The notes under the pieces: generated by a model
What the model saw: the letters and a program-made list of their open reading frames with translations, nothing else
Database searches by the model: none
What the model was told of the DNA's origin: nothing
DNA from: Acidobacterium sp.
GTDB taxonomy: Bacteria; Acidobacteriota; Terriglobia; Terriglobales; Acidobacteriaceae
Reading direction: 5' to 3'
DNA: 33,373 nucleotides
NCBI GenBank assembly: GCA_003167515.1
Contig: PMSS01000310.1
Span: 2,039 to 35,411 of the forward strand
Shown here: positions 3,301 through 27,094 of the stretch, in pieces
How positions within the stretch are numbered: position 1 is the stretch's first letter
Layout of the letters: each line of letters begins with the position of its first letter
Translations under genes and position numbers: made by a program

Positions 3301-4606
3301 TCAGCGCTCGCAGGCGCAGAAACGGGGCTCTGTCAGACCCGTGCTCGTCGAGCGCGTTGATGGCCGACTCCGCAGTGGCCAGCTGCTTTTGTGCGGCGTC
3401 GGTTTGTCGAAGGTTCTGATAAAGCTCCATCAGATCCATATGCAGCTGGATGGGGTAGAGCGGACCGTCGGCGGGTTCCGATGGCAGGTGCGCCAGAGCC
3501 GCATTGAATTCCTGGACGGCGTCCGCGTCCCGCTCCTCGATGCGCGCAATCTCTCCGCGGATGGCATGCAGCCGATAGTGATTTGGATCGATCGAGGCCG
3601 CGCGCTCCAGAAATGTGTTGGCATGCTCCATGGAACCGACCGCAACTTCAGCCTGTGCGGCCGAGAGCTGCAGAGTCAGGTCCTTCGGTAGAGCATTCGC
3701 GACTTGCACGTAGAGTTTCGCAGCCACTTCCTGCTTGCCATCGAGTTGGTAGGTATAAGCAAGCTCAGCGACAACATCGGGCCGCGGCGAGCGAATCGAT
3801 TTCAGAGCGGCGATAGCGTCGCCGTAGTTGCCCGTCTCCCGGTAGTAGCCACCCAGCGATCGCTGCACATCAGGATTATTCGGGGTACGGGCCTTGGCCA
3901 TATCGAGATAGCGCCGGGCCATGTCCAGTTGCTTCGTATGCTCGTACGAAATCGCCAGCAGCAACTCCGCGCGAGCGCCGGGGTGAAATCGTTCCGCGGT
4001 GCCCAGCGTTTCCAGTGCGCCCTGGTAATCACCCGACCTCATTTGCAGGTCGCCAAGGAGCACAGCGTCGTCGCTCTGCTTCGGATCGGCGGCCAGGACT
4101 TTCGTCAGCAGATCCTGCGCCTCTTTGGTACGGCCCATCACAGCGTACGTCTGCGCAAGACCGGACTGACCCTCAAGCGAGGCCGGATTCAGGCGAAGCC
4201 CGTGATTGTAAGCGTCGGCGGCCAGCCAAGGCTTCGAGTCGAGCCGCGCGGCATAACCGAGCAGAAACCACAGATGCGGATCATTAGGAGCCGCCTGCGC
4301 AGCGCGCTGCGCGAAGGCCACCGCCTGCTCATGATCCCCACGCTTGATCGCCGCTTCCGCAGCTCCGGCGAGTCGAGCAGTTTGAATATTCGATCCCCAG
4401 CCCAGCGATTGATCCTGGGATTGTGATTGGGATTGCGGTTGATTCGGCGTGCTCGGTGTTTTCGTCGACCCGTCCGAGCCCACTTTGTACGTCTGCGCCA
4501 GACCGCAGAGTGCAAAAGAGATCATGGTCAGAAGAACGCCTGCAAATCTGAGGCAGCCAAGTCGAGCAATCAAGGTATCACCGGGGAAATGCACAGAATG
4601 GTCCAT
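335..4606 (-). CDS. TPR-repeat outer-membrane beta-barrel protein, putative exopolysaccharide export porin
   Basis: This 1423-residue protein starts with a signal peptide: a hydrophobic stretch near residues 20-35 ending GLAQ, with likely cleavage after GLA. Roughly residues 75-1090 are consecutive TPR helices, seen in recurrent patterns such as LGYAARL, AHLGLAYTALDL and AYVNRGYVLHDL. The last ~300 residues change to alternating hydrophobic/aromatic strands and end in Phe (YVSITLF), the usual C-terminal signature of an outer-membrane barrel. The layout resembles BcsC or PgaA, in which periplasmic TPRs feed a polysaccharide-conducting barrel. That role is inferred from architecture and from the GT4 gene 10 nt downstream. 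The start is uncertain: the ATG at 4606 has no clear Shine-Dalgarno sequence and slightly overlaps one possible start of the divergent gene. A general protein-interaction or assembly role is the alternative. Confidence 0.8.
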   Translation of the reverse strand: MDHSVHFPGDTLIARLGCLRFAGVLLTMISFALCGLAQTYKVGSDGSTKTPSTPNQPQSQSQSQDQSLGWGSNIQTARLAGAAEAAIKRGDHEQAVAFAQRAAQAAPNDPHLWFLLGYAARLDSKPWLAADAYNHGLRLNPASLEGQSGLAQTYAVMGRTKEAQDLLTKVLAADPKQSDDAVLLGDLQMRSGDYQGALETLGTAERFHPGARAELLLAISYEHTKQLDMARRYLDMAKARTPNNPDVQRSLGGYYRETGNYGDAIAALKSIRSPRPDVVAELAYTYQLDGKQEVAAKLYVQVANALPKDLTLQLSAAQAEVAVGSMEHANTFLERAASIDPNHYRLHAIRGEIARIEERDADAVQEFNAALAHLPSEPADGPLYPIQLHMDLMELYQNLRQTDAAQKQLATAESAINALDEHGSDRAPFLRLRALIRMNAGDLTGARSDMTEALAINSTDPNSLQLDGDLLMKLGHTEEAIAVYKQILTVDPNSRFALTSLGYASRAAGRDQEAEKYFQRLAQDYPTLYIPWLALGDMYTSRRDFPRAESAYSKAYALAPGNALIVAGGLNADIEAHKLDDAGVWFHRVTNDMQGEPQVLREKERYLSFHGDYRQSADVAAQAIRVLPADRDVVVYLGYDFLHLNQYDDLLSLTSKYDQILPKEPDIPLLAGYVHKHNGQLQDARADFSEALQRDPEVVTAYVNRGYVLHDLHQPREAAADFEAALKREPKNGEAHLGLAYTALDLHKPQLALRQVQLAEAGLGDSQPIHLIRATAYGQAGSLGKAAREYRAALKFTPNDGSLHLALAGTLYAERRYHDAIDELDIAQKLLPGDDLVYAWLARSWSQLQNTQETLRYVQLAEQHAMLKPAAATEPRSDAPDVFVFTGEALSHLGDQNAAMERFRRALTMPASDRVTVRLAIAQLMATENHSEDASRQIALGLMEAEAGDTLPPTGEQMIEASDLFRQMHDYQLSVTYLQRAGAAGASDTAVRVGLANTYLAQGDTARAQGELAAINSSPGDEPDYQYLLAKANVYRQEHQSTQALTAFAQASDAAGEDQTAEQNLLQAAGDEGYRVNSRLSALADVSVDPIFEDTTVYVLDSKLDAAFPVPISDTSLLPPPRSSFETQGTGAFHLHLNYVPAVSGFFEVRNARGVISVPATNSVVSRDTTDYSFNFGVNPTIHLGTNVITFNSGAQATVRRDSESPVELDQNLFRVFTYVSTSSFFNALSMDGYILRETGPFTESNLHSDAFAAAVDFRVGAPWGRTALVTGWGRNDQTFTPVSIEDYYTSSYIGLDRRFGDRFDVKGLAEDLRAWRTVGTRSGIAQALRPAGSVKFIPARKWSVQASGSYSNNRGFHVYDAVQSSFSVSYGMPFHREFRDETGDVVLQYPIRFSAGVQQETFFNFTGGQNEQFRPYVSITLF

Positions 4607-6472
4607 TGGATGCTGCGCGCGTCTTCAGCGTTGGCTTTTACGAAGGCTACCACTCTGTTTACCAGGCAACCGGGGGCGTCGATTTTCGAATCCAATGGTC
4701 TTTCGCGAGGCATATCTTTGCAGAAGCTCGAAGCGGTCGCACCATCAACTCGGCCCATCCCCTTGAGTCTCATCCTCATGGCAGCGTTAGCCGTTCATCT
4801 GCCGCTCCTGTTGATGGAACTGCCGCTGAAGTCGTACGACACAAATTTCCACATTTTTTTCGCCTCGCATTATCTCCACCACTGGTTCGATCCCTGGAAC
4901 CCAAAGTGGTATGCGGGTTTTTCACAGACCACGTATCCGCCGTTGCCTCAACAGTGGATCGCACTCGTATCCAGAATTACCGGCCTCGACCTGGCGTATA
5001 TGACGGTCCAGCTGGTCGCCATCCTGCTCCTGGTGGTCGGCGTTTATCGCTTTGCGCTGCTGTGGGTGACCCCACGCGCCGCGTCCCTGGCCGCGCTGGC
5101 TGCCGTGTTTCTCGGCTCGGAAAGCTTTTTGGTGTACTCCGCCGGGCAGCTGTCGACTACGACCGCCGCGCCGCTTTACCTCAACGCGCTGCCGTATCTG
5201 TTTGAGTGGGTTCGGGAAGGGAAGTGGCGTTCCTTCGTCAAAGGTGCTGCTCTCTTTACCGCCGCCGCAGCCGCCCACCACGCCACGCTGCTCTTCGGCT
5301 CCATGTTCTTCGCCATTCCGGTGCTGGCGCTTGTCCTGATCGATCGCCAGGACGGCGAGCGGGTTTCGACTCCAGCGTTCCTCATTCGCACTGTCGTCAT
5401 GACCGTAGTGGTCGCTGCCGCCGTCGCTGTCGTGCTGCTGCCCTTCTGGATCGCGCTGATTCACTATCCCGTTACGCAGACTCCCATCCCGCATGCCAGC
5501 CGCGCAAACTACATTCTGAGCCCACAGTGGGGTCTCAATTACTTCGTTATCCCCTACGGGGCGCTGATTCTGGCACTGCCTTTCATTTTCGTGCGTGGAT
5601 CCGCTGTCACCCGTCTTCGCCCTTTGCTGCTCGGCTTCTGGGTTGCATTCCTGGTCGGGCTCGGCGGAACCACCCCTGTGGGTCATCTGTTGCTGGGCCG
5701 CGCCTTTGACGTCCTGACCATGGAGCGTTTCAGCTACTGGGCTACATTGCTGGCGCTGCCCTTTGTCGGGCTTCTTGCTGCCGAACTGATCGATCGCTAT
5801 CGGGGGCGTGCTGTCGCTGTTCTGACCATTGCCGCGACCTTTACCTGTGCCATGGCCGTGGCCTGGTCAACCTTTCGACCCGCCGATGCCGCAGATTTCA
5901 AGGTCGATTCGGTTGCAGCATGGCTCAATCGCGATGGTCACGATAACTACCGCTACGTGACCCTCGGCTTTGGCAACAAGATATCCCGCCTGTCGGTTCT
6001 CACCGACGCCAGCAGTGTCGATGGCGAGTGGAATTCCGGACGCATGCTGCCGGAGCTGACCGCCCACGGCGGAGCCGCGCTCACCAGTTCAAAGTATTTC
6101 AACAAGGAAGGCCTCGACGCGCTCCGAGCAATTCTCGATCATGCCGATCGCTACGGTCTGAAGTGGGTCTTTGTCCGGGATCCCTACTACGAGCCGCTGC
6201 TTACCTTCGGCGGCTGGCGTCGCGTCGACGATCTGGAAGACCGCACCATCATTGTGTGGAGCAAGGACGGTGTGCCTCCCGCCGCGCCGGTGAACGCGCC
6301 GCAAATTCCTCCGCACTGGCAGGGACTGATGTGGGGAACCTTGCCCTTTGGCAGCAGCCTTCTGGCAATTTTTGTCGTCCTGGCTCTTCCGGAAAGGCAG
6401 CGGCGCAGAGCTGCCGACGTTGAGCCTGCTGTCATGGATAAAGATCTCGTCCCAGGAAGGATGTTCTCGTGA
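4589..6472 (+). CDS. Multi-pass membrane protein, PF10131-like (GT-C-type glycosyltransferase-like)
   Basis: The protein has about ten or more hydrophobic segments from roughly residue 55 to 450, then a soluble domain and a last TM (PFGSSLLAIFVVLAL). The first extracytoplasmic loop contains DTNFHIFFASHYLHHW and then WNPKWYAGF with YPPLPQQW. This is the loop pattern of the '6-pyruvoyl-tetrahydropterin synthase related' membrane family (PF10131), which resembles GT-C glycosyltransferases using lipid-linked sugars. Function is therefore inferred as glycan transfer or polymerisation at the inner membrane. The start is unresolved. ATGs at 4589, 4598 and 4610 overlap or abut the divergent TPR gene. 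A TTG at 4718 preceded 7 nt upstream by GAGG would leave a divergent promoter region and still sit before TM1. The stop overlaps the next gene's GTG (GTGA), indicating an operon. Confidence 0.7.
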   Translation: MHRMVHWMLRASSALAFTKATTLFTRQPGASIFESNGLSRGISLQKLEAVAPSTRPIPLSLILMAALAVHLPLLLMELPLKSYDTNFHIFFASHYLHHWFDPWNPKWYAGFSQTTYPPLPQQWIALVSRITGLDLAYMTVQLVAILLLVVGVYRFALLWVTPRAASLAALAAVFLGSESFLVYSAGQLSTTTAAPLYLNALPYLFEWVREGKWRSFVKGAALFTAAAAAHHATLLFGSMFFAIPVLALVLIDRQDGERVSTPAFLIRTVVMTVVVAAAVAVVLLPFWIALIHYPVTQTPIPHASRANYILSPQWGLNYFVIPYGALILALPFIFVRGSAVTRLRPLLLGFWVAFLVGLGGTTPVGHLLLGRAFDVLTMERFSYWATLLALPFVGLLAAELIDRYRGRAVAVLTIAATFTCAMAVAWSTFRPADAADFKVDSVAAWLNRDGHDNYRYVTLGFGNKISRLSVLTDASSVDGEWNSGRMLPELTAHGGAALTSSKYFNKEGLDALRAILDHADRYGLKWVFVRDPYYEPLLTFGGWRRVDDLEDRTIIVWSKDGVPPAAPVNAPQIPPHWQGLMWGTLPFGSSLLAIFVVLALPERQRRRAADVEPAVMDKDLVPGRMFS

Positions 6473-8962: not shown

Positions 8963-9068
8963 TGTAGCTGCCATGCAATCGAAGACCGTACGACCGACAT
9001 GCAGACAAAATCCAGGCCAGTCGCGAAAGAGAGTACTAGCCTTTGGAAAAATCCCAAGGAGGAAGTCA

Positions 9069-10055
9069 ATGATCTCGGTCGTCGTACCAATCTTCAACGA
9101 GGAAGAGAACATTCTCCTCTTCCACGAAGCCGTTGCCTATGCCTTAAGAGACATCGGCGAGGACTGGGAGGTGGTCTACGTCAATGACGGTTCGAGGGAC
9201 TCCTCACTGGATATACTCCGCGGACTGCAGTCCGCCGACTACCACGTCGTTGTGGTCGATCTGTCGCGCAACTGGGGGCACATGGGCGCGATCTCGGCGG
9301 GCCTGCAGACAGCCCGCGGCGATGCTGTTGTCATGATGGATGGTGACTTCCAGGATCCCCCGGAAGTTTTGCCGCAGTTAGTCGAAGCATGGCACCAGGG
9401 ATCTCAGGTCGTAGTGGCCGTCAGGCGGAGCCGGCAGGAACGCCGCAAGGTTCTCGCCAAGCTGTTCCCGATCTTTTATCGCGTGCTGGGCGCCCTATCC
9501 GATTTTCCCATACCTCTGAACGCCGGAATTTTCGGTCTCATGGACCGGCAGGCCGTCGACGCGATCAACGCCATGCGCGAAAACAACCGCTACCTGCCTG
9601 GCCTGCGCGCGTGGGTCGGTTATAGCAACACCGTTATCTACTACGATCGGCAGGATCGCGCCGCTGGCGACGGCAAGCTGACGTTCGTCAGCCGCATCAA
9701 GTATGCGATGGACGCGATCACCAGCTTCAGTTTCAAGCCGTTGCGACTCTGTTTCGCGCTGTCGGCGCTCTCCTGTTGCGTGGCCGCCATACTTGGGCTG
9801 TCAGGCCTGATATCGAGCAGCGCATTGACCGCCGTGGGCTGCGGCGTGGCGGCGGCAATCTTCATGGTCGGAGGCGCGGTCCTCCTCTCTCTCGGCGTAC
9901 TGGGTGAATATCTGGGTCGCGTCTACGACGAAGTCCGGCAGAGACCGCTGTCAATCGTCAACAAGGTCTACTACGCTTCGGATATGGCTGGGGCTCTGGT
10001 GGACCAGTCCGCAAACGAGGAAGAGCCAGCGGCGAGGATACTGCGGATCGCTTAA
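9069..10055 (+). CDS. GtrB/DPM1-type glycosyltransferase family 2, polyprenyl-phosphate sugar transferase
   Basis: The start is set by a strong Shine-Dalgarno sequence (AAGGAGG) 6 nt before the ATG at 9069; the longer ORF in the track is not needed. The 328-residue protein opens with the GT2 GT-A fold (ISVVVPIFNEEENI, then VNDGSRDSS). The metal/nucleotide motif DGDFQDPPE matches the D-D-LQDPPE signature of the GtrB/DPM1 group. Two C-terminal TM segments (residues ~235-255 and ~265-290) followed by LGEYLGRVYDEVRQRP are also typical. Such enzymes load a sugar onto undecaprenyl phosphate at the cytoplasmic face, supplying GT-C enzymes such as the PF10131-like gene upstream. Donor sugar unknown. 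Confidence 0.9.
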   Translation: MISVVVPIFNEEENILLFHEAVAYALRDIGEDWEVVYVNDGSRDSSLDILRGLQSADYHVVVVDLSRNWGHMGAISAGLQTARGDAVVMMDGDFQDPPEVLPQLVEAWHQGSQVVVAVRRSRQERRKVLAKLFPIFYRVLGALSDFPIPLNAGIFGLMDRQAVDAINAMRENNRYLPGLRAWVGYSNTVIYYDRQDRAAGDGKLTFVSRIKYAMDAITSFSFKPLRLCFALSALSCCVAAILGLSGLISSSALTAVGCGVAAAIFMVGGAVLLSLGVLGEYLGRVYDEVRQRPLSIVNKVYYASDMAGALVDQSANEEEPAARILRIA

Positions 10056-10076: not shown

Positions 10077-11030
10077 CTACTGCGATCCGGCCGGGCAGGT
10101 GGGTATCCCCGGCTCGATCGCGGTGCCTTCCTCGTAATCGTTCCACGTCGCAATCAGCAGGAAGGGCAGCGTATTGTCTGACGGGTAGTACTGCCGCCAG
10201 AAGTTCAGCGTGTCGGTAAACGTCTTACCGCAGCGTGCTGAGATATGGCGGTTGAGACTCCACGAGGCTTTGCTGTCGTTAAACTGCGCCCAAGCGCCAC
10301 CTACGGCAATCTTGTCGGGATATTTGGTTTGCATGGTGCTGTAGAAGTCGGCGAGATAATCGTCTCCCCAATTGCCCCCGTCCGCCGCCCAGCCCTTTTT
10401 CCCCGGCTGCACCCAGGCATAAAACCCGTCAAAAGCGTTCACGTAGGGGCCGCCGGGCAGGTTTTCGTAGATGAGCAACGGCGCCGGATTCCATTTGTTC
10501 AGATCTTCCCGGACACGGTTCCAATCCGTATGCATGCCCTTGGGAAAGATGAATATGACGGGCCGCCCCTCGTATTCGAGGTACGCCTGCCTTCCTGCGG
10601 AGTCCGGAGCAAAGTAAGTATCGTGAAACATTTTGAAGTCGGAGAGCGTATCGTCGGTCGCGCCGTCTTCCTGATCGGTCTCGTCATACATCATCGCGAC
10701 CTTAAACTTCTGCTCGGCTGCGGCAGTCTGCATCAGAGCGTAGGTCTGATCGTTGAAGGGGTCGCGATCCCCATACCAGTCCACGACAAAGCCGGAAATC
10801 CCCATGGCCTTTGCCTGGCGGATTTGCTTGCGGATCTCGGCTGGGTCGTGCGACGAATATCCGACGGAAATGTGGGCAGGATGGCCGAACCACGGTTCAT
10901 ACACTGCAAGCAGCTGCGGCGCACTGCTGCCGTGCTTCGGTCGAAGCCGCGTCACCTTCTGCGTTGGCGATTGAGAACATCCGTGAACAAGCAGAAGAAG
11001 GGAAAATAATGCAGTCGTTATACGAGCCAT
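10077..11030 (-). CDS. GH99-like lipoprotein (putative endo-mannosidase-type glycosidase)
   Basis: I place the start at the ATG at 11030 (317 residues) because it begins a short lipoprotein signal, MARITTALFSLLLLVHGC, with the lipobox ending HGC. The 35 residues upstream in the ORF track are not signal-like. The mature protein opens with LLAVYEPWFGHPAH and then GFVVDWYGDRDPFND, as in GH99/GH71-like (beta/alpha)8 proteins. Near the C-terminus it has WNDYEEGTAIEP, matching the conserved W-N-E-(W)-x-EGT-x-IEP region that carries acidic active-site residues in GH99. It converges on the GT2 and diverges from the flippase, so it sits inside the glycan locus. A role trimming or releasing the exported glycan in the periplasm or at the outer membrane is inferred. 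Confidence 0.75.
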   Translation of the reverse strand: MARITTALFSLLLLVHGCSQSPTQKVTRLRPKHGSSAPQLLAVYEPWFGHPAHISVGYSSHDPAEIRKQIRQAKAMGISGFVVDWYGDRDPFNDQTYALMQTAAAEQKFKVAMMYDETDQEDGATDDTLSDFKMFHDTYFAPDSAGRQAYLEYEGRPVIFIFPKGMHTDWNRVREDLNKWNPAPLLIYENLPGGPYVNAFDGFYAWVQPGKKGWAADGGNWGDDYLADFYSTMQTKYPDKIAVGGAWAQFNDSKASWSLNRHISARCGKTFTDTLNFWRQYYPSDNTLPFLLIATWNDYEEGTAIEPGIPTCPAGSQ

Positions 11031-11066
11031 TACGGGAATGGTTCTTAGACGGCGGCAACACCGGCC

Positions 11067-13205
11067 ATGGTTGTCCGGCATCGGCGTTTTGACGCTGACC
11101 CTGCGAGCAGCCGGACGGTTGAAGGCCGCATCCAATGCTCAGTTCAAAACACCTCTCTCATAGAGGGAGACGGCCTCGATGGATTCGCACGATTTCTCGC
11201 CGCCAACCCCACCGCGACGGAGTTTGTAGCTTTGGAGATTAGCCCGACAGACCGATCAAGAACTCTGCATGCCCGTATTTTGTCGGGAAGTTTCGTACTG
11301 ATTCTGGGGTCGGGCCTCGCCACCGCAGCCAATTTTGTCTACAACATGGCGGTTGCGCGGTTTCTGGGCCCCACCGGCTACGGTCACGCAACGGCTGTCT
11401 ACACTCTTCTGATTCTGACCTCAGCGGCAACCCTCTCTTTCCAGATCATCTCCGCCAAGGTAGTCGCCCAGCAAAGCTCTCTCGAAGCCAAAGCTGCCGT
11501 CTATCGCGCATTTCACCACGCCGCGTGGGCCTGCGGGATCGCCCTCGCCCTGCTCCTGCTCGTATTTCAGAGCTGGATCGCCGCCTACCTCAACCTGCCA
11601 AGCCCCGTTCTCGTGGCCTTGTTGGCCGCCGGTGTTGCCTTTTACGTTCCCCTCGGCAGTCGGCGCGGCTACATTCAGGGGGTCTGTGGTTTCCGCATCC
11701 TCGCCACGAATATGGTGCTCGAAGGAGTCGTTCGACTCTTCGGCTCGCTCCTGCTGGTCAAACTTGGCTTCGGCGTCCGCGGAGTGGTCGCCGCCAATGC
11801 CGCGGCGGTTGCGGTAGCCTATTTCGCCGCCATACCCCGGTCCGCTCCGCGTGTACCCAACCCGCTGCAATTCCAATATGCCCTTCGCGAGACCTTCCAG
11901 GCCCTGATCTTCTTTTCCGGCCAGGTCCTCATCAACAATTGTGACATCGTTCTGGTCAAGCACTTCTTCCTGCCGACAACCGCAGGGCTCTACGCGGCGG
12001 TAGCCATGGTCGGCCGCGTCATCTTTTCCTTCTCTTTCGCAGTTGTCAATTCCATGTTTCCGCTGGTGGCAGGCACCCGCCAGGAAGAGAGAAGGGGACT
12101 GAAGGCGATCGCGACGTCCTGCTTACTCGTCCTGGTCATCGGCTCTGCTTTCGCTCTCGGCCTGCGTCTTGCCCCGGCGGCGATCTGGACAACCATGTTC
12201 GGAAGTGGCTTTGCAATTAGCGGGCAATTCGGACTCCCTTACCTCCTGGCGCTGTATGCCATAACTACGGTCGTCTATTCGCTCAGCGTGGTGATCACGA
12301 CCTACGAAATGTCCTACAAAATCGCGAATGCCAGCTGGATTCAGCTGGCTTTCAGTGGCATCGTTATTGCCGGCATTTGCCGATTCCATTCGTCGCTACG
12401 AGAAGTTATCTGGGTACAACTGGTTGTGATGATCGTGTTGCTCGTCGTTGTGGCTGTCCCCTTCATCCTTAGCTCGCTGTCGGAGTCGCGTATGTTGCAG
12501 GGAACTGCGGGCGCCGGTCCCATCAGGATCATGCGCCGCGTATCGGAAGACCAAGTTATCGCCGAATTCCTCAGGAACGATATCAATAGTCCAGCCTTCC
12601 ACGATTATCGAGAGTCCCTGGGTCACCTAGTCACCGATCCGAATCTCGATGATCCCAGTGAGAACGCGAAAAGGAAAGCCCTCTTTTTCATCCGGCATCG
12701 CGCACTGTGGAAGGAGCTGCCCAGAGATACCGAATGGTATGAGGTGGAACTGCGGCCGGCGGAGTTCTCGCAGATCAGGTTCTTTCCAAGAGCACAGTGG
12801 CGCAAGCTCGCAAAGGGAGACTTCTCCGCTCCCGCTGTGGTCGAGCGCCTCCGCAGTCAGGAGAATCTCATCCACCCTGGCTTCCGGTCGAAAATCGACT
12901 CCATTCGCAAGCGGTTGGGGCCGCAGGATGCAGCGTTGGGCACCGTGGTTCTGATCGGCATCAGCGAGAAGGAGCCGGTTACCGTTCTTGATGGCAATCA
13001 CCGCCTGGCCGCGGCGATGCTCGCCTCCTCACCGGACGGATTTGAGAAGCTGCGCTTCCTCTGCGGACTATCGCCGACGATGACGAGATGTTGCTGGTAC
13101 AACACCAATCTGGTCACACTGCTTCGCTATGGAAAGAACATCGTCGGGCACATTGTGCGGGATCCCGAGGCAGAGCTTGCGCGTCTATTGCAGACCAGTG
13201 GCTAG
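11067..13205 (+). CDS. Polysaccharide flippase (MATE/MVF-like) fused to a ParB/Srx-like C-terminal domain
   Basis: Residues ~75-475 form about 12-14 TM helices of an O-antigen/exopolysaccharide flippase. The first conserved motif is NFVYNMAVARFLGPTGYG, followed later by the DIVLVKHFF segment common in Wzx-like proteins. Residues ~490-712 are soluble and contain VTVLDGNHRLAAAML near residue 640. This is the DGxHR-type loop of the ParB/sulfiredoxin superfamily, whose members include CTPases (ParB), sulfiredoxin and free-serine kinases (SerK, SbnI). The reading frame is uninterrupted across both parts, so this is a fusion. The start is uncertain: ATG 11067 follows the track, but a TTG at 11232 with GGAG 9 nt upstream leaves a more usual short N-terminus before TM1. 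The flippase would export lipid-linked glycan; the domain's activity is unknown. Confidence 0.85.
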   Translation: MVVRHRRFDADPASSRTVEGRIQCSVQNTSLIEGDGLDGFARFLAANPTATEFVALEISPTDRSRTLHARILSGSFVLILGSGLATAANFVYNMAVARFLGPTGYGHATAVYTLLILTSAATLSFQIISAKVVAQQSSLEAKAAVYRAFHHAAWACGIALALLLLVFQSWIAAYLNLPSPVLVALLAAGVAFYVPLGSRRGYIQGVCGFRILATNMVLEGVVRLFGSLLLVKLGFGVRGVVAANAAAVAVAYFAAIPRSAPRVPNPLQFQYALRETFQALIFFSGQVLINNCDIVLVKHFFLPTTAGLYAAVAMVGRVIFSFSFAVVNSMFPLVAGTRQEERRGLKAIATSCLLVLVIGSAFALGLRLAPAAIWTTMFGSGFAISGQFGLPYLLALYAITTVVYSLSVVITTYEMSYKIANASWIQLAFSGIVIAGICRFHSSLREVIWVQLVVMIVLLVVVAVPFILSSLSESRMLQGTAGAGPIRIMRRVSEDQVIAEFLRNDINSPAFHDYRESLGHLVTDPNLDDPSENAKRKALFFIRHRALWKELPRDTEWYEVELRPAEFSQIRFFPRAQWRKLAKGDFSAPAVVERLRSQENLIHPGFRSKIDSIRKRLGPQDAALGTVVLIGISEKEPVTVLDGNHRLAAAMLASSPDGFEKLRFLCGLSPTMTRCCWYNTNLVTLLRYGKNIVGHIVRDPEAELARLLQTSG

Positions 13206-13249: not shown

Positions 13250-13642
13250 ATGACAACCGGTTTGCGTGCTGTGGCTGTAAAGAGATTCCCGGACGAGCTC
13301 AGTGTGAAGCTGAAGCTCACCTTCCTTCACGAAATCAGCGGCGTTATGAGTGCAAATCGGCCACGTCTCGTCCTTGACTGCTCTGGTCTCGGTGAATGCA
13401 ACAGCTCCGCCATTCATCTCCTGCTGCATTGTCTCGAAGAGGCGATGAAACGCAACGGAGATGTCAGACTCGCTGCAATCCCGCCCGCAGCAGCCGTGGC
13501 TCTGGTCAGCACCGGAGTAGCGCGGCTGTTTGAGAAGTTCGATACCACCGCTGAGGCGGTGAACAGCTTCCATCAACTTCCCAAAGATACGGAAAGACAG
13601 CCGTTGTGGGGCCCGCAACAGGAATCAGAAAAGGCCGCGTAA
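13250..13642 (+). CDS. STAS-domain protein (anti-sigma-factor-antagonist-like)
   Basis: This 130-residue single-domain protein is preceded by a purine-rich Shine-Dalgarno region (GGGAGGGG). It has the STAS core RLVLDCSGLGECNSSAIHLLL. The position of the phospho-accepting Ser in SpoIIAA-like proteins is kept (N-S-S), but the usual preceding Asp is Asn and the following Gly is Ala. The next strand/helix (DVRLAAIPPAAAVALVSTGVARLF) is also typical. STAS proteins are usually partner-switch regulators or small binding modules. No anti-sigma kinase is nearby. Located between a flippase and a kinase-like gene, it may regulate the glycan machinery; this is inference. The start might lie slightly downstream, but the STAS core is not affected. 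Confidence 0.8.
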   Translation: MTTGLRAVAVKRFPDELSVKLKLTFLHEISGVMSANRPRLVLDCSGLGECNSSAIHLLLHCLEEAMKRNGDVRLAAIPPAAAVALVSTGVARLFEKFDTTAEAVNSFHQLPKDTERQPLWGPQQESEKAA

Positions 13643-14215: not shown

Positions 14216-14932
14216 ATGCGATCGGAAGCCAAACACAAACGCGCCGGTTTTGTGAGCTTTTCCGGCATCGATGGCGCGGGAAAGAGCACGCAGATTAATC
14301 TTCTTCGCGCTCGTTTGCAGCTAGCCGGTCTCCGCGTTCGGGTGATTACATTTTGGGATGACGTTGCCTGCTTAACCGGATTGCGCGAGGCCACCGGGCA
14401 CAAGCTGTTTAAAGGAGACAAAGGCGTCGGCACCCCCGAGTCACCCATCAACAGGCGGGACAAAAACGTCAGATCACACTTCATGACGATGGTTAGGTTA
14501 TGCCTTTACCTCGCTGATGCCGTTGCGCTTCGCCGCACAGTGAAAAGGGCACTCGTGTCCAACGAAGATTTCGTGATCTGTGACCGCTATGCCTATGACG
14601 AGCTCGTGAACCTGACTCCGCACAATTGGTTCATCCGGGCTTATGTGCGGCTGGTCATGAAGCTCGTCCTGCGGCCGGATATCAGCTATTTTCTGGACGC
14701 TGATCCTATTCAGGCCCGCGCCCGCAAGCCCGAGTATCCGCTCGATTTCCTCTATACCTGCCGAGAATCGTATTTGACCCTGAGCGAACTGGCGGGTGGA
14801 ATCACGATCATTCCTCCCATGCCAGTGCGTGAGGCTGAGCGCGAGATCCTGAAGCACCTGCTGCTCCGAGACACGCAATGCGACCGGAGAATAGCATTCG
14901 TTGGAGAGGACGATCTTGGCATTCCCGCGTAG
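14216..14932 (+). CDS. Thymidylate-kinase-like P-loop protein of a polysaccharide locus
   Basis: The 238-residue protein has a perfect Walker A motif (FSGIDGAGKST, residues ~12-22). It also has the DRY-like motif of thymidylate kinases (VICDRYAYDELVNL, around residue 120) and a FLDADPIQARARKPEYPLD segment like the lid/LID-adjacent region (normally LD.. P..a..R). A Shine-Dalgarno sequence GGGAGG lies 8 nt before the ATG. It differs from housekeeping Tmk in its long insert after the P-loop region (residues ~45-95) and in its genomic setting, next to flippase, STAS and secreted proteins. Related divergent Tmk-like proteins are often encoded in glycan clusters with no assigned substrate. It may phosphorylate a sugar or nucleotide precursor; this is inference. 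Confidence 0.8.
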   Translation: MRSEAKHKRAGFVSFSGIDGAGKSTQINLLRARLQLAGLRVRVITFWDDVACLTGLREATGHKLFKGDKGVGTPESPINRRDKNVRSHFMTMVRLCLYLADAVALRRTVKRALVSNEDFVICDRYAYDELVNLTPHNWFIRAYVRLVMKLVLRPDISYFLDADPIQARARKPEYPLDFLYTCRESYLTLSELAGGITIIPPMPVREAEREILKHLLLRDTQCDRRIAFVGEDDLGIPA

Positions 14933-16779: not shown

Positions 16780-17193
16780 TTAAAGGGCGACGACATTGAG
16801 GCCAGGGATGGCCTCGAAATGTTTGGCGTTGAGCGTCACCACATCGAAGCCCAGATGCAAAGCTGTGGCTCCAATGATCAGGTCCTGGACAGCGATGGAA
16901 ATGCCTTTCGCCGCCTGTTCACCCTCGATGCGCCCGGCCAGCTGAGCAATCTCCAGGGTTAGTGGGTGCGTGATCAGGTCGTGGAAGACGCCTTCCACGA
17001 ATACCCGGCGTCGCACGCGATCTGCGTCTGTCCTCGCACGATAAATGCCGTGTGTCAGTTCCACTGCGCTGACCGAGGACAATGCGACGTCAATCTCGCC
17101 ATGCAAGTCCCGCGACCGGCGGAGGACGTCTTCGACGCCTTCGCCCCGCCGTTCGCTTTCGATCAGGATGCTGGTGTCCAGGATCAGGCCCAC
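16780..17193 (-). CDS. vapC: PIN-domain toxin, VapC family
   Basis: The 137-residue protein has the PIN nuclease layout: LDTSILIE with Asp6, SAVELTHG with Glu45, and IAVQDLIIGATAL with Asp104. A VVTLNAKHF strand follows, where Asn122 stands near the fourth site. These residues coordinate Mg2+/Mn2+ in VapC ribonucleases, which cleave tRNA or rRNA when free of antitoxin. The length is normal and no catalytic residue is obviously missing. The ATG at 17193 lies 4 nt after the stop of the antitoxin gene, so the two are coupled. The target RNA cannot be predicted. Confidence 0.92.
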   Translation of the reverse strand: MGLILDTSILIESERRGEGVEDVLRRSRDLHGEIDVALSSVSAVELTHGIYRARTDADRVRRRVFVEGVFHDLITHPLTLEIAQLAGRIEGEQAAKGISIAVQDLIIGATALHLGFDVVTLNAKHFEAIPGLNVVAL

Positions 17194-17197
17194 TGAG

Positions 17198-17482
17198 TCA
17201 TTCCCATACTGAGGTATCGCGCGGCTTGCGACTGCGGATGATCTCCTCGAGATCGGCGGCGAAGCCCGCGTCCATCACCGGCTTATAGCCCAGATCTTTC
17301 GACCGGGCTTCGGCCAAAGCGATGGACTCGGAGATGGACCGGCGCGGCGGAGCCGCCGTACGAATCACAGCCACCGGGTTCGCTCCGTTCTCGATCACAA
17401 CCTCCGCGCCAGCGCGCACACGCGCCAGCAGCCCTGGAAAATCGCGCGCAGCATCGTCTTCCGAGATGTGGATCGTTGCCAT
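17198..17482 (-). CDS. Phd/YefM-type antitoxin of the adjacent VapC
   Basis: The start is placed at the ATG at 17482 (MATIHISEDDAARDF, 94 residues); the track's upstream extension is not conserved in character and runs through the promoter. The first ~55 residues match the Phd/YefM fold: ARDFPGLLARVRAGAEVVIENGANPVAVI has the typical 'F..ll..v..Ge.v.I...g.p.avl' pattern. The C-terminal part, rich in Arg, Glu and Asp (residues ~60-94), would be the disordered toxin-neutralising tail. It lies immediately upstream of vapC. A palindrome in its promoter suggests autorepression. Confidence 0.88.
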   Translation of the reverse strand: MATIHISEDDAARDFPGLLARVRAGAEVVIENGANPVAVIRTAAPPRRSISESIALAEARSKDLGYKPVMDAGFAADLEEIIRSRKPRDTSVWE

Positions 17483-17489
17483 ACTCAAG

Positions 17490-17512
17490 ATGATACCAGG
17501 AATGCTTTCCTG
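17490..17512 (-). promoter_or_regulatory. Promoter with operator palindrome for the antitoxin-vapC operon
   Basis: On the minus strand TATCAT (17495..17490, 5/6 match to TATAAT) lies 7 nt before the ATG. The perfect inverted repeat CAGGAA-TGCT-TTCCTG (17497-17512) falls just upstream, where the -35/-10 spacer would be. No Shine-Dalgarno sequence is visible between the -10 and the ATG, so the transcript may be leaderless. The position fits an operator bound by the Phd-type antitoxin; this is inferred. Confidence 0.55.
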
Positions 17513-17573
17513 ACTATTCGCAGGACACACTCCAGTCTTGATGTTCGACCCTGCGACCCGCGAATTCCGTTCC

Positions 17574-18332
17574 TCAGCTCGCCGGCTTAACATGCACGAT
17601 CGTGCAGTTCACCTTGGCCGTGTTCGCAATGAAAGCCCCAATCCGAATATTGCTGTAGCTGCTGGTGGCATTCGCATTTGTTGGCCCGTTCAGCGTTACT
17701 CGGTATTGCGACAGGTCGGCTCCGTTCGCGTCGTCCTGCTCGCATTGCACTACCGCCGAAGTAAGCGCGACCGCCGAGTTGTTGGCCCACGTTGCCGTCG
17801 TCAGAACCAGAAACCCGTTCTCCGACTGCCAATGCGCGTTGAATGCCTGCTGGTTTACCAGCGCCGCATTCCCGCCTGACCCGGAACCGGCGGGCGGCGG
17901 CGCACTGGGCGCGCCAGGCTGAGAAGCCGGCTGGCTGGCAGCCGGAGGGTTCGACGCAGGAGTGCTCGCGCCCGGGTGCGACTTCGAGTAGTAGTAGTAA
18001 ACGAGCCCGGCGACAATCACGATGACGATGATCGTCCCCAGCATCGAATTGCGGTTCTGTGCGCCTGCCGGAGCCTGTCCCGGTGGCACAGCCACCACGA
18101 CCGGACCCTGCGCCGGTGCAACATACTGCGGCGGTGCGCTCGCGAATGTTTGAGTCGCTGGCTGAGGTGCGCTCGCGAATACCTGAGCCGCTGGCGGAGG
18201 AACGGGCGCGGCCGGCGGTGGTGAGCTCGGCGCCCCCGCTGCTGCCGTCTTCGCAGAAACGTCCGCTCCACACTGCGCGCAAAAGCGCTCTTTGCCCGTT
18301 AGAGTATTCCCACAATTGCTGCAAAATGCCAT
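17574..18332 (-). CDS. Zinc-ribbon, Pro-rich, single-TM protein with exported C-terminal domain
   Basis: The start is the ATG at 18332 (MAFCSNCG), supported by GGGAGAGG upstream; the longer track ORF is rejected. The protein has 252 residues. Residues 4-21 form a zinc ribbon of the CxxC-x10-CxxC type (CSNCG and CAQCG). A long Pro/Ala-rich linker (~25-105) follows, then one TM helix (TIIVIVIVAGLVYYYY) and a second Pro/Ser-rich linker. The C-terminal ~85-residue beta domain (LVLTTATWANNSAVALTSA) has two Cys that could form a disulfide. The topology suggests a cytoplasmic zinc ribbon and a periplasmic sensing or binding domain. It lies 67 nt downstream of the PrsW gene, which has a matching N-terminal ribbon, so the two may act together. 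Confidence 0.75.
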   Translation of the reverse strand: MAFCSNCGNTLTGKERFCAQCGADVSAKTAAAGAPSSPPPAAPVPPPAAQVFASAPQPATQTFASAPPQYVAPAQGPVVVAVPPGQAPAGAQNRNSMLGTIIVIVIVAGLVYYYYSKSHPGASTPASNPPAASQPASQPGAPSAPPPAGSGSGGNAALVNQQAFNAHWQSENGFLVLTTATWANNSAVALTSAVVQCEQDDANGADLSQYRVTLNGPTNANATSSYSNIRIGAFIANTAKVNCTIVHVKPAS

Positions 18333-18399: not shown

Positions 18400-19698
18400 C
18401 TATGTAACCGCGCTGCCTGCGGGCTGCATCGAAGCCTCAACCCTCTGCAAGGTCCCCTGCAGATCCTGCTTCTGCTCTTCCTTCACCTGCCGCAGCCCCT
18501 GCTGCACCAGACCAAACACAACGTACCAGCTAACCACGGCCGACAGAATATAGTTCCCGCCGAAAGGAAGCTGCAACTGAGCGGGCAGATCCCAGATCGT
18601 GTGCAATACCACTGGAATCATGAACGCCTTCAGGAACCGCGAATCCATCAGCATCGATGGACTCGTCGGCAACGCCCCTTTGACGCGCCAGAACGCCCCG
18701 GCCGCGATCGCCGTCCACGCCACATGCCCCCAGGGCGTCAGCAGCGCGCGCGTCCGCAGCACTTGCAGCATCAGGATGATGCCCGCTTTGAGGTTCGCAC
18801 CAGCCAGCAGCCCCTGATTCAACGCGTATCCGGAAGTCTCAAACGCCGCGAATCCCGCGCCCACCGTCGCTCCGAAAAGCAATCCGTTCAGGATGTACTT
18901 GTACCGCACCTCGCGCACCACAATCACGACGGTCAGCAGCTTGGCGACTTCTTCGACGATTCCGGCCGCTGTGTCTCCCAGCGAACCCAGAACCGGCAAC
19001 GTATATCCGATCAGCGCGAAGACCAGCGAAACGACCGCGCCAAACAGAAACAGCGTCGCGAGCCTGTGTAGCGAGACGTTCCGCGGGCTGTTCATCTCAA
19101 AGAAAAACGTCAGCGTCGTCAGCGGAACGGCGAACGCTCCGAGGATCATCACCGCTGGAACCAGGTTTCCCGCATCCGACAAATGCAGCAGTGTGAACGT
19201 GAAGACCAGATACGAGATGACCATCGTCGCCAGCACGCGGAAGAAGAGCCACGGCTTCGGCCAGCCCGCCTGCACCAGATCGATCGGAGGCGTGGTTTTC
19301 CTCGTTCCCACCGCAAGGTAGTCTTCCACGTCCTCGGTGCTGCGCTTCTTGAAGACATCCGAGAACATCTCCTTCAGGCTGAACCCTTCCAGCTGTTCAG
19401 TGGAAGCCAGTTTCTGCAGCCTGCCCTGCAGGTTGCGCAGCAGATTTAACTGCTGAATGGTGTGCGGCTGCGCTGCTGGATGGGCTGCGACGTAATACAC
19501 CTGCTGCGGGGCTCCTGGTACCTGCGGTGGAACCGGATAAACCGGCTGCGGAACATACTGGACCATGGGCTGAGCAGAGGCTGGCTGTTGCGGGGTGGGA
19601 CCGGTCGCAGCCCCTTCAGGACGCGTTACCGCCGTCCCGCATTGCATACAAAACTTATTTTGCGGTGGAACCAGGGAGCCACATTGAACGCAGTACAC
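18400..19698 (-). CDS. PrsW-family intramembrane metalloprotease with N-terminal zinc ribbon
   Basis: The true start is a GTG at 19698 with GGAG 8 nt upstream. It gives MYCVQCG and 432 residues and removes a 38-residue artefact from the track ORF. Residues 3-20 are a CxxC-x10-CxxC zinc ribbon, followed by a Pro/Gln-rich linker to ~residue 75 and a helical region. From ~150 on there are about eight TM segments. PrsW/CAAX-protease-superfamily motifs are present in order: IVEEVAKLL near residue 249, AGFAAFETSG near 287, a HVAWTA segment, and HTIWDLPAQ. The Glu-Glu and His residues are the expected metal/catalytic set. PrsW proteins cleave membrane anti-sigma factors in Bacillus. The substrate here is unknown, but the downstream zinc-ribbon single-pass protein is a candidate partner. 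Confidence 0.88.
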   Translation of the reverse strand: MYCVQCGSLVPPQNKFCMQCGTAVTRPEGAATGPTPQQPASAQPMVQYVPQPVYPVPPQVPGAPQQVYYVAAHPAAQPHTIQQLNLLRNLQGRLQKLASTEQLEGFSLKEMFSDVFKKRSTEDVEDYLAVGTRKTTPPIDLVQAGWPKPWLFFRVLATMVISYLVFTFTLLHLSDAGNLVPAVMILGAFAVPLTTLTFFFEMNSPRNVSLHRLATLFLFGAVVSLVFALIGYTLPVLGSLGDTAAGIVEEVAKLLTVVIVVREVRYKYILNGLLFGATVGAGFAAFETSGYALNQGLLAGANLKAGIILMLQVLRTRALLTPWGHVAWTAIAAGAFWRVKGALPTSPSMLMDSRFLKAFMIPVVLHTIWDLPAQLQLPFGGNYILSAVVSWYVVFGLVQQGLRQVKEEQKQDLQGTLQRVEASMQPAGSAVT

Positions 19699-19797
19699 CG
19701 GAAATTCTCCGTCAGGAAAAGGCTGGGGGGATTGGTATAGGAACGTAGCATGGAGCGCTTTTCGAAGTAAAGAAAAGATTGCGCGCTCGGGAAGTGG

Positions 19798-21465
19798 TTG
19801 GGGAACCTGCACTTGCCCCGTTCCGTACTAAGGACCGCACAGGCCCCGTACCAACGGCTGCGTAGTAAGATTCGATACCCACGAGGATTCCCCACGAACG
19901 CAGCGAAAGCCATCCCGTCGACGAGCCCCGAGCCCTCCCAGCCCCACACCGAACGCTGGTTCACCTCCGGCCCGGCCATCGTGGCCGCCATCGCGATCCT
20001 GAAGCTCGCGCTCCAGCTCCATGCCGCGCCCCACTACGGCATCTTCCGCGACGAGATGTACTACCTCGCCTGTGGCCAGCACCTCGGCTGGGGTTACGTC
20101 GACCATCCGCCGGGGATGCCCTTCATCGCCTGGCTGGTCAGCCACACCCTCGGTACGTCTCTCATCGCATTGCGTCTGCTGCCGGCCCTCGCCGGAGCCG
20201 CGCTCGTCTGGCTCAGCGGCACGATGGCTCGCCAGATGGGTGGCGGCCGCACGGCCCAGGCCCTCGCCGCTCTCGCTGTCCTCGTAGCACCCATTTACAT
20301 GCTCCTGCAGCACTGGTTCACCATGAACGCCTTCGAGCCGCTCCTGTGGATGGTCTGCGCCTGGTGCGTCCTGCGCTACGTCGAGAGCGGCGACGCGCGC
20401 TGGTGGCTCTGGGTTGGCGTTCTCTGCGGCATCGGCCTCGAAATGAAGTACTCGGTCGTCCTCTTCGCTGCGGGGCTGATCGTCGGACTCGCCCTCACGC
20501 CCCATCGCCGTGTTCTCGCCTCAAAATGGTTCTGGCTCGGCTGTCTCGCCGCGTTTCTTATCTTCCTGCCGCATCTGGTGTGGCTCATCCACCACCACTT
20601 CCCTTTTCTTGAATACGAGCAGAACGTCCGCATGACCTCGCGCGATGTGCGCCGCGCCCCGCTGGCCTTTCTGCTCGACCAGGCCAACATCCTCAATCCC
20701 GTCTCGGCTCTCCTGGGGGTCGGCGGACTGGTGTGGCTGTTTACACGCGCCGGCGCACCCTACCGCATCCTCGCGTGGACCTTTCTGGTCGTCCTCGGCG
20801 CGTTGATGGTCACGCAGGGCAAGAACTACTACGTTGCGCCGGTTTATCCCATGATCTTCGCCGCCGGCGCAGTCGCCTTCACACAATGGATACGCAGCGC
20901 CTGGCTGCGCGGAGCCTACACGGCCCTGCTCGCCGCCTCCGGCATCCTCCTCGCGCCGCTGGCGATGCCGCTCCTGCGCCCGGAGACGTTTCTCCGCTAC
21001 GAACACGCGATCCACATCTCGACCCCGAAAGCAGAGAATCAGCGCACCGGACCGCTGCCGCAAATCTTCGCCGACGAGTTCGGCTGGGAAGACATGGTGC
21101 GCAAAACCGCAGCCGTCTACTGGAGTCTGCCGCCCACCGAACGAGCCCGCACCGCCATCTTCGCGAACTCCTGGGGCGAGGCCGCAGCCGTCGACTATTT
21201 CGGCCCGAAGTACGGCCTGCCCCGCGCCATCAGCGCGCATAATTCCTACTGGCTCTGGGGGCCGCGCGATACTGACGGCAGCACCGTCATCGTTCTCGGC
21301 AGCGACGGCAGCGGCGATCGCGAACATTTCCAGAGCGTCATCGACTCAGGTCAGAAAACCGACAACCCCTGGTCCCGCGAAGACGAACACTTCACGATAT
21401 GGCTCTGCCGCGGACTGCACTGGGATCTCCGCGCCGTCTGGCCGAAGATCAAACACTGGGGATGA
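19798..21465 (+). CDS. GT39/ArnT-type membrane glycosyltransferase (PMT family)
   Basis: The 555-residue protein has about 10-12 TM helices. The first periplasmic loop carries FRDEMYYLACGQHLGWGYVDHPP. The acidic D-E pair and the G-x-VDHPP motif are hallmarks of the PMT_2 group of GT-C enzymes, which transfer sugars from polyprenyl-phosphate donors. Other family patterns are YMLLQHWFTMNAFEPLLW and GLEMKYSVV. The C-terminal ~150 residues are soluble, including a segment with SWGEAAAVDYFG. The start is uncertain. No ATG precedes TM1; TTG codons at 19798 and 19813 and a GTG at 19981 are the options, and none has a strong Shine-Dalgarno sequence. It is divergent from the PrsW gene. It could accept donors made by a GT2 such as the one at 9 kb. 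Confidence 0.85.
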   Translation: MGNLHLPRSVLRTAQAPYQRLRSKIRYPRGFPTNAAKAIPSTSPEPSQPHTERWFTSGPAIVAAIAILKLALQLHAAPHYGIFRDEMYYLACGQHLGWGYVDHPPGMPFIAWLVSHTLGTSLIALRLLPALAGAALVWLSGTMARQMGGGRTAQALAALAVLVAPIYMLLQHWFTMNAFEPLLWMVCAWCVLRYVESGDARWWLWVGVLCGIGLEMKYSVVLFAAGLIVGLALTPHRRVLASKWFWLGCLAAFLIFLPHLVWLIHHHFPFLEYEQNVRMTSRDVRRAPLAFLLDQANILNPVSALLGVGGLVWLFTRAGAPYRILAWTFLVVLGALMVTQGKNYYVAPVYPMIFAAGAVAFTQWIRSAWLRGAYTALLAASGILLAPLAMPLLRPETFLRYEHAIHISTPKAENQRTGPLPQIFADEFGWEDMVRKTAAVYWSLPPTERARTAIFANSWGEAAAVDYFGPKYGLPRAISAHNSYWLWGPRDTDGSTVIVLGSDGSGDREHFQSVIDSGQKTDNPWSREDEHFTIWLCRGLHWDLRAVWPKIKHWG

Positions 21466-22195: not shown

Positions 22196-22612
22196 CTACA
22201 GCTTCTCCGGCTGAATCCCAATATTCTTCTCGCCGGCAGCCTTCTTCTCCCAGTATTTCCTGATCCACGCCTCGAAGGTCTTCCCCGCCGCATTGTCGCG
22301 CCCGGTAAAAGCCAGCGCAGCAATGTCGGAATAAGGAATGCTCAGCTTCGTCCGCTCTTCCGACGGCATCACCCGCACAACTGAATCCTGGAGAGTCGCG
22401 CCGGTGCGCCGGTCAAACACGTAGCCGTGAACCACGCGGCCATCTTTCAGCGTCAGTGTCACATCGCCGCGGTAATCGAACGCCTTCTCGAGCGCCTGCC
22501 GAACGTCATTCTCGCTCGCCAGCGACGGGATCCACCCCTCGAGCTGCTCGCGCGCACGCCCCTCCATCACCTCAACGCTGTTCGGATCCATGGCAGCCGG
22601 CCGGCCTGTCAT
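22196..22612 (-). CDS. Unknown protein coupled to hpnH, possible Sm-like beta barrel
   Basis: I do not recognise a named family. The 138-residue protein has an N-terminal helical part (VMEGRAREQLEGWIPSLA, ASENDVRQALEKAF). The middle reads as a small bent beta sheet: DVTLTLKDGRVVHGYVFDRR, then LQDSVVRVM and LSIPYSDIAALAFTGRD. The 'G.v..G.v......v.v.......I....I..l' order resembles Sm/SH3-like barrels. The C-terminus is Lys-rich. There is no signal peptide or TM. Its ATG overlaps the hpnH stop by 4 nt, so it is co-translated with a hopanoid side-chain enzyme and may be an accessory or regulatory factor of that pathway. This is inference from position only. Confidence 0.75.
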   Translation of the reverse strand: MTGRPAAMDPNSVEVMEGRAREQLEGWIPSLASENDVRQALEKAFDYRGDVTLTLKDGRVVHGYVFDRRTGATLQDSVVRVMPSEERTKLSIPYSDIAALAFTGRDNAAGKTFEAWIRKYWEKKAAGEKNIGIQPEKL

Positions 22613-23745
22613 ACCCGAGTTCCCTCTTCCACACGGACATGCGTCTCAATCTGGGCATTGATCTGAACCAAAGGATTGAAACTATGCACCGGCTTCACCG
22701 GATCATTGAGCAGATCGAGCGCGCCCTTATCCGGATAGAGCTTCGTCATCGCCTTCGCCGTCTCCCACAGCCCCTTCAGCGATCCAAACGTGTAGTTCAC
22801 CGCGGTGCCTTCGTAGCCGGAATGCACCATGCAGTTCGCGCACTTCGGATTGCCGCTCTCGGTCCCGTAGTTATCCCAGTTCGTCGACTCGATCAGCCCC
22901 TCAAACGTGTCCGCATACCCGTCCTGCAGCAGGTAGCAGGGCTTCTGCCAGCCAAAAATGCTGAACGTCGGCATCGCCCACGCCGTGCATTTGAAATCCC
23001 GCTTCCCCATGATGAATTCGAGGTAGAGATAATTCGCGTTGAACTTCCAGCTCTTCTTCCGGTTCGAAAGAATCGCACGGAAGAGCCGCCGCGAACGAGC
23101 ACGCCCCAGGAAATGCTTCTGATCCGGCGCCTTCTCGTACGTGTACCCCGGCGCCACCATCATCGCCTCCACACCTACATCCATCAGCTCGTCAAAATGC
23201 GCCCGCACCGAGTTGGGATCGGCCCCGTCGAACAGCGTCGTGTTCGTGGTTACGCGGAATCCACCCGCGATCGCCGCCTTGATCCCTTCCATCGCGATGT
23301 CGTACCCACCCTCGCGGCACACCGAGAAATCATGATGCTCGCGTTGGCCGTCCAGATGAACCGAAAACGACAGATATTTGCTCGGCTTAAACAGATGAAG
23401 TTTTTCTTTCAGAAGCAGCGCGTTCGTGCACATATAAACGTACTTTTTCCGCTCAACCAGCCCCGCCACAATCCTGTCGATCTGAGGATGCAGCAGCGGC
23501 TCTCCGCCCGGTATCGAAACCATTGGCGTGCCCGCTTCTTCGACCGCGCGGAAGCACTCCTCCGGCGTCAGCTCCTGCTTCAGAATGTGCGGCGGATACT
23601 GGATCTTGCCGCAGCCGGCGCAGGCCAGGTTGCAGCGGAAGAGCGGCTCCAGCATCGTGACCAGCGGAAAACGCTTCCGCCCCTTCAACTTCTGCGTCAG
23701 AACGTACGTTGCCACCGTCCACGCCTGTGATACAGGTACCGCCAT
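22609..23745 (-). CDS. hpnH: HpnH, adenosylhopane synthase (radical SAM)
   Basis: The 378-residue protein has the radical SAM cluster motif CNLACAGC (Cys38, Cys42, Cys45). The sequences MLEPLFRCNLACAGCGKIQY and VSIPGGEPLLHPQI are typical of HpnH, which joins a 5'-deoxyadenosyl radical to diploptene/hopene and starts C35 bacteriohopanepolyol synthesis. A C-terminal part contains further Cys residues (PKCANCMVHSGYEG), as in the family. It lies downstream of shc on the same strand, 98 nt away with a palindromic repeat between. A Shine-Dalgarno-like stretch, GGAGGAAGGG, precedes the ATG. It acts at the cytoplasmic side of the membrane where hopene accumulates. Length is normal. Confidence 0.95.
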   Translation of the reverse strand: MAVPVSQAWTVATYVLTQKLKGRKRFPLVTMLEPLFRCNLACAGCGKIQYPPHILKQELTPEECFRAVEEAGTPMVSIPGGEPLLHPQIDRIVAGLVERKKYVYMCTNALLLKEKLHLFKPSKYLSFSVHLDGQREHHDFSVCREGGYDIAMEGIKAAIAGGFRVTTNTTLFDGADPNSVRAHFDELMDVGVEAMMVAPGYTYEKAPDQKHFLGRARSRRLFRAILSNRKKSWKFNANYLYLEFIMGKRDFKCTAWAMPTFSIFGWQKPCYLLQDGYADTFEGLIESTNWDNYGTESGNPKCANCMVHSGYEGTAVNYTFGSLKGLWETAKAMTKLYPDKGALDLLNDPVKPVHSFNPLVQINAQIETHVRVEEGTRV

Positions 23746-23771
23746 CAGGAACCCTTCCTCCGTCTCAAATT

Positions 23772-23820
23772 CGGGTGCCCCATCCTGGGCGCGCCCGTTT
23801 TTGGCGCTCGCAGGGTGGGT
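23772..23820. repeat. REP-like palindromic element between shc and hpnH
   Basis: The gap holds CGGGTGCCCCATCCTGG, then a central GCGCC/GGCGC stem around CGTTTTT, then CAGGGTGGGT. CCATCCTG pairs with CAGGGTGG with one wobble, so the whole forms a long imperfect hairpin. A CGGGTGCCCC core also occurs inside the hemY gene at 32229. I recall GGGTGCCCCATCC...GGGTGGG elements as dispersed repeats in Terriglobia genomes; copy number cannot be checked here. The hairpin may attenuate or stabilise the shc-hpnH transcript. Confidence 0.6.
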
Positions 23821-23843
23821 GTTTCCCCAGCTTCAGTGCTTTG

Positions 23844-25934: not shown

Positions 25935-25998
25935 GCCGTTTGAGAAAACCAGTTCCCCCCTGAATGTTCTTTGCTGTACTGATGCCCGCGCTGTCCGC

Positions 25999-27021: not shown

Positions 27022-27034
27022 GTTCTTTATTATA
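27022..27034 (-). promoter_or_regulatory. ispH: -10 element placed for a leaderless ispH transcript
   Basis: Reading the minus strand, a perfect TATAAT (27034..27029) is followed by 7 nt and then the GTG start codon at 27021. The expected transcription start falls on the GTG itself. No good -35 match is seen 17 nt upstream (CCGGGA) and no Shine-Dalgarno sequence lies between. This supports the chosen start and suggests a leaderless mRNA for the hopanoid block. Confidence 0.5.
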
Positions 27035-27094
27035 CCGTGAACCGCTGCACCTCCCGGTGGGCAGATTGTTTCCTCGTCCCTCCGACGCAGCCGA

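Follow-up and report, generated by a model that had tools for sequence, protein, structure and literature searches.

A Wzx-type flippase carrying a conserved cytoplasmic domain, probably of a divergent ParB/Srx (ParB-CTPase) fold, is encoded by a single gene in the 33,373-nucleotide stretch of Acidobacterium sp. DNA analysed here (the window). At the DNA level, flippase and soluble domain are joined in one stop-free frame of 712 aa (window:11067-13205, +), as the earlier note on this DNA had claimed, and the sequence VTVLDGNHRLAAAML was found at the place which that note had given. The features of the gene and of its conserved neighbours are listed in Table 1.

Table 1. Features of the fused gene and its neighbours in the window. 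Neighbour counts refer to the 80 best loci, many of which are cut by contig ends.
Feature	Position	Strand	Loci with neighbour	Basis
TPR protein, 1423 aa	335..4606	-	50/80	TPR families
Large multi-TM protein, GT-C/PTPS_related-like	4427..6472	+	52/80	Family match
Polyprenyl-phosphate GT2 glycosyltransferase (PgfS/ArnC-like)	8973..10055	+	43/80	PF00535; NF047588 241 bits, below its cut-off
GH71/GH99-like glycoside hydrolase	10077..11135	-	72/80	Family match
Flippase part (Wzx type, MOP superfamily), residues 67-475 of the frame, with 12 TM helices	11232..12506	+		PF01943, Foldseek WzxE, AlphaFold helices
Short junction, where flippase stop and domain start overlap as ATGA in the split clade	12507..12524	+		Model, split-clade loci
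Cytoplasmic domain, probably a divergent member of the ParB/Srx (ParB-CTPase) fold	12525..13202	+		AlphaFold2, Foldseek, conservation
FPRAxW, an invariant motif that follows the first core strand	12783..12800	+		F, P, R, W in 99/99
Helix placed like the C-motif (Box I) helix of ParB	12876..12911	+		DSSP of the model; hhalign register with ParB, stand-alone homologues
DGNHR, candidate Box II (P-motif, GxxR)	12990..13004	+		GNHR in 99/99; G and R in 102/102 homologues
C-terminal conserved segment CGLSPxMxxCCWY	13062..13100	+		Alignment conservation
Small STAS-domain protein	13250..13642	+	67/80	PF13466/PF01740
Small Pro/Gln-rich protein, signal-like N-terminus, C-terminal TM segment	13691..14179	+	68/80	No family match
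Thymidylate-kinase-like (Tmk-like) P-loop protein	14216..14932	+	66/80	PF02223, 46 bits

The translation start is likely to be TTG 11232 rather than ATG 11067, because ATG 11067 falls within the glycoside hydrolase gene on the opposite strand, and because the N-terminal ~55 residues of the 712-aa frame are unconserved and lie within a stretch that is disordered in the AlphaFold model (residues 1-64). TTG 11232 is preceded by a Shine-Dalgarno-like GGAG (11219-11222).

For the membrane part, the match of the window protein to PF01943 (30.3 bits) was above the gathering cut-off (28.2), and MATE and WzxE structures were matched by Foldseek, including the inward-facing WzxE 9g9n with a TM-score of 0.72 by target length (E 3.4e-6). 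The full-length AlphaFold model (mean pLDDT 86.8) contains 12 TM helices across residues 67-475; the flippase identity given in the earlier note was thus supported, but its count of about 13 helices was not. Loop charges were broadly consistent with cytoplasmic N- and C-termini, as in Wzx proteins, and the 12-helix model with a cytoplasmic N-terminus places the tail on the predicted cytoplasmic side, a location that is well supported and had also been proposed before. Judging by the gene context, with GT2, GT-C-like, GH and TPR proteins, the flippase may flip an undecaprenyl-linked oligosaccharide.

A profile scan of genome contigs returned 156 relatives, and at the best 80 of these, kept as loci, the domain was in frame with the flippase in every case (80/80). 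The 5' end of the frame was complete at 74 of the 80 fused loci and truncated by a contig end at the other six, and the fused loci included those of the isolates Acidipila rosea, Occallatibacter savannae and strains KBS 83, KBS 89, S8 and AB60, ruling out a sequencing error or a mis-joined ORF. The flippase subfamily and the domain are obligately paired: in 61 related genomes they co-occurred in an identical set of 23 (flippase threshold E <= 1e-20), and the flippase was never found without the domain. In the fragmented genome G035 of this set, the two ends of the domain sit on short contigs. Only 8 of 396 phylum-wide genomes matched, and seven of the eight belong to the family of the window, so the fusion is a lineage-specific feature of one family of soil Acidobacteria. 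Three genomes of one genus carry the fused gene twice on one contig, the second copy being diverged and ~18-27 kb from the first (L031, L033 and L058 in G006, G001 and G003).

The earlier note had allowed that the fusion might be a sequencing error, with separate genes in homologs. Error is excluded by the fused loci, whereas separate genes do occur in four genomes (L034, L035, L056 and L057) forming one clade (support 100/98), where the genes are adjacent and the ATG of the domain overlaps the flippase stop as ATGA. A GGAGG-like stretch lies just upstream of this ATG, which together with the overlap is a sign of coupled translation, and the functional link is therefore strengthened rather than weakened by the split. 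The two parts have thus switched at least once from one gene to two overlapping genes or the reverse, with the coupling retained; given a very long outgroup branch in the tree, either fusion or fission may account for this.

The domain of ~226 residues (~487-711 of 712) is a separate unit and was modelled by AlphaFold2 with a pLDDT of 92.9 and a pTM of 0.88. In domain numbering, the core of the model consists of strand 75-80, helices, helix 123-134, strand 144-150, strand 157-161, GNHR, helix 163-171 and strand 181-187. This order, strand-helix-strand-strand-GxxR-helix-strand, is that of the ParB/Srx fold and agrees with the topology suggested earlier. Sequence searches of the domain against Pfam, NCBIfam and PDB gave no significant match, and PF02195 (ParB_N) was matched by none of 72 family members nor by the window protein. 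The structural comparison with SerK, SbnI and ParB that had been suggested gave a mixed result, since the core order and the names Noc, SerK and ParB among the matches agreed with the proposal, but no match was significant (Foldseek E at least 0.17 for ParB/Srx-type matches). The 14 matches in PDB included Noc (two chains), SerK 5x0g and the SerK relative 1vk1, none significant, and about a quarter of the 50 matches listed among BFVD viral models were named ParB, Srx, DndB or GmrSD-N, again none significant. For two family members scanned apart against PHROG, the sole function-named match of each was to ParB families at the GxxR segment (E 0.24 and 0.043). In hhalign comparisons with ParB profiles built from 13, and later about 40, acidobacterial proteins, GxxR was aligned on GxxR, and with the stand-alone homologues the helix, loop and strand that come before it were also in register (P 0.14-0.20, non-significant).

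GNHR was invariant in 99/99 acidobacterial sequences, and the G and R of GxxR in 102/102 sequences including stand-alone Actinomycete homologues. Residues F501, R536, P552, W557, W578, G643 and R646 (712-aa numbering) were kept in all 102, and G667 in all but one. Taken with the model, these results indicate that the domain probably belongs to the ParB/Srx (ParB-CTPase) fold superfamily as a divergent member. The Foldseek and hhalign values, the missing PF02195 match and the long, variable loop that follows the putative C-motif helix (Box I side) in the fused family count against this assignment. Each fold or profile score being non-significant by itself, the tail could also be an unrelated novel fold whose GNHR likeness to ParB/Srx is coincidental; however, the core elements stand in the correct order around GxxR, and ParB, Srx and DndB names are enriched among the best Foldseek and PHROG matches (an enrichment that is a judgement without an exact background rate), which makes coincidence improbable. 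Two known members of the superfamily were considered and rejected: a canonical ParB (CTP clamp), as there was no HTH/ParB family match above cut-off and no ENxxR (Box III) after Box II in the alignment, and a sulfiredoxin, as the catalytic Cys is missing from the GxxR loop, which reads GNHR in 99/99.

A soluble single-gene version of the domain was found in one other acidobacterial family (L146) and on plasmids of Streptantibioticus cattleyicolor and Kitasatospora (E 2e-6 with the window domain). In these Actinomycete homologues, TGEQFPP before the strand resembles, as a resemblance only, the Box I loops of nucleotide-binding ParB-fold proteins (PMC12704722). The domain had no relatives among the phages and viral contigs searched, and a phage origin was rejected; residues 104-167 of a stand-alone homologue gave a weak match to a Fusobacterium phage ORF (E 3e-3).

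The STAS and kinase-like genes pointed out downstream in the earlier note were conserved across the family (Table 1); in the split clade, the STAS gene precedes the flippase gene. Three exported-looking proteins were also conserved (55-57 of 80 loci), and in the Sulfotelmatobacter-like branch (e.g. L125, L127, L136) the order was rearranged while most of the gene set was kept. From this conserved neighbour set, the cluster is very likely a secreted polysaccharide system with the flippase as its translocator. The 1423-aa TPR protein has a strand-rich C-terminal region with a terminal F and, judging from its sequence, may be an outer-membrane polysaccharide exporter of the PgaA/BcsC kind; such a candidate beside a Wzx-type flippase is an unusual pairing. 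SpoIIAA-like partner switching by the STAS neighbour is not favoured, since its SpoIIAA-type phospho-serine position is variable. Elsewhere in the window, hopanoid genes (22609-27150) encode an HpnH-type radical SAM protein (TIGR03470), squalene-hopene cyclase and LytB/IspH, and are followed by a second radical SAM protein and an amine oxidoreductase (30276-33070). Also observed were a toxin-like gene of the PIN-domain type next to a small ORF resembling an antitoxin gene (16780-17593, -), and a zinc-ribbon-like protein (18400-19812, -) whose match to PrsW-type intramembrane proteases (NF033739) was weak and below cut-off.

The best-supported view of the tail is a regulatory cytoplasmic module on the flippase, by analogy with the pseudokinase tail of MurJ. 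In the conserved acidobacterial polysaccharide system, the Wzx-type flippase would carry an undecaprenyl-linked glycan through the inner membrane, and the tail would probably bind a nucleotide through the GNHR loop together with the helix and loop before it. Once bound or turned over, the nucleotide would alter how the tail contacts the flippase at its inner face, so that flipping is gated, and the neighbouring STAS protein may share in sensing it. If the fold assignment is right, nucleotide binding would be the likely signal, since ParB-CTPase-fold domains bind CTP, ATP or GTP and are repeatedly fused to other modules; their nucleotide specificity cannot be read off sequence (PMC12704722). 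The reading as a whole, a nucleotide-binding tail of divergent ParB/Srx fold gating Wzx-type glycan flipping, is plausible but tentative, and its narrower form, in which flipping is gated by or coupled to nucleotide (possibly CTP) binding or hydrolysis in the built-in domain with the STAS protein as partner, is doubtful.

Two genomes that also possess the fused gene (G022 and G015) carry an extra copy of the domain that has an N-terminal TM segment of its own (L032:9587-10564 and L036:9561-10583), without a flippase and with an aroA-like gene directly after it on the opposite strand. These copies form one clade (support 100/99) and imply that the domain can work at the membrane without a flippase, which counts against gating. 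They could be enzymes, and the fused domain might likewise be a SerK/SbnI-type kinase or phosphotransferase acting on the lipid-linked glycan, a nucleotide-sugar-derived substituent or a free metabolite just before flipping. The presence of SerK and 1vk1 among the few PDB matches is in line with this, and the invariant polar and aromatic residues (R536, W548, E550, T555, W557, F573, P574, R575, W578, GNHR, C676 and W677) look active-site-like. However, none of the SerK catalytic residues could be mapped onto the domain, SerK uses free serine only (PMC5120207), no substrate gene pattern was found and GNHR lacks the catalytic Cys of Srx; an enzymatic role is thus considered unlikely, and the serine-kinase idea is an analogy only.

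The conserved STAS, GT2 and Tmk-like neighbours and the variable Box I loop would also fit a scaffold without catalytic activity, docking the flippase to cytoplasmic glycosyltransferases or the STAS protein and having lost nucleotide binding, as the non-catalytic tail of MurJ works in this way (PMC6180346). The invariance of GNHR and other polar residues over 99 sequences goes beyond the needs of a scaffold, however, and GxxR is kept in the stand-alone Actinomycete homologues, making a pure docking role quite improbable.

The domain has no family in the databases searched. No literature on such a flippase-domain fusion was found among openly accessible main texts. Wzx flippases are generally regarded as carriers that lack soluble domains, and little is known about what adjusts flipping to the supply of precursors. 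With an obligate module that is lineage-wide and probably of a fold acting elsewhere as a CTP/ATP switch or kinase, the regulation of flipping would become directly testable by point mutants in a harmless, cultivable soil bacterium. If gating by the tail is true, this protein would be a nucleotide-switched polysaccharide flippase, and the ParB/Srx fold would be extended into membrane transport, in a branch that would escape PF02195-based surveys. In the main text of a survey of ParB-CTPase-fold fusions from 2025, neither a flippase nor a transmembrane partner is mentioned (PMC12704722); since that survey is PF02195-based and the domain has no PF02195 match, it probably went undetected there.

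Compared with known systems, the membrane part resembles the Wzx O-antigen/ECA flippases (PF01943; WzxE, PDB 9g9n) in its 12 TM helices, MOP fold and polysaccharide gene context, whereas the listed WzxE chains have ~409-418 residues and no soluble tail, in contrast to the 226-residue conserved domain fused here. Like the predicted domain, ParB, Noc, SerK, SbnI, Srx and DndB share the GxxR Box II, the order of core strands and helices and the habit of domain fusion (PMC12704722), but the domain differs from ParB-CTPase-fold proteins in lacking a PF02195 match, in an extra N-terminal helical region (residues 487-555), in its FPRAxW and CCWY segments and in its membrane transporter partner. The stand-alone Streptantibioticus and Kitasatospora homologues are matched over most of the domain length and share the F, R, P, W and GxxR invariants, yet they are soluble hypothetical proteins of ~200 aa with a GHLR loop and without a flippase partner. 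The precedent is mycobacterial MurJ (MviN), also a flippase of the MOP superfamily, whose C-terminal cytoplasmic module has been proposed as a regulator of flipping; FhaA and CwlM are bound by its pseudokinase domain and linker, for which a control of flipping is proposed (PMC6180346), although MurJ belongs to another flippase subfamily (14 TM) and its tail has an unrelated protein-kinase fold.
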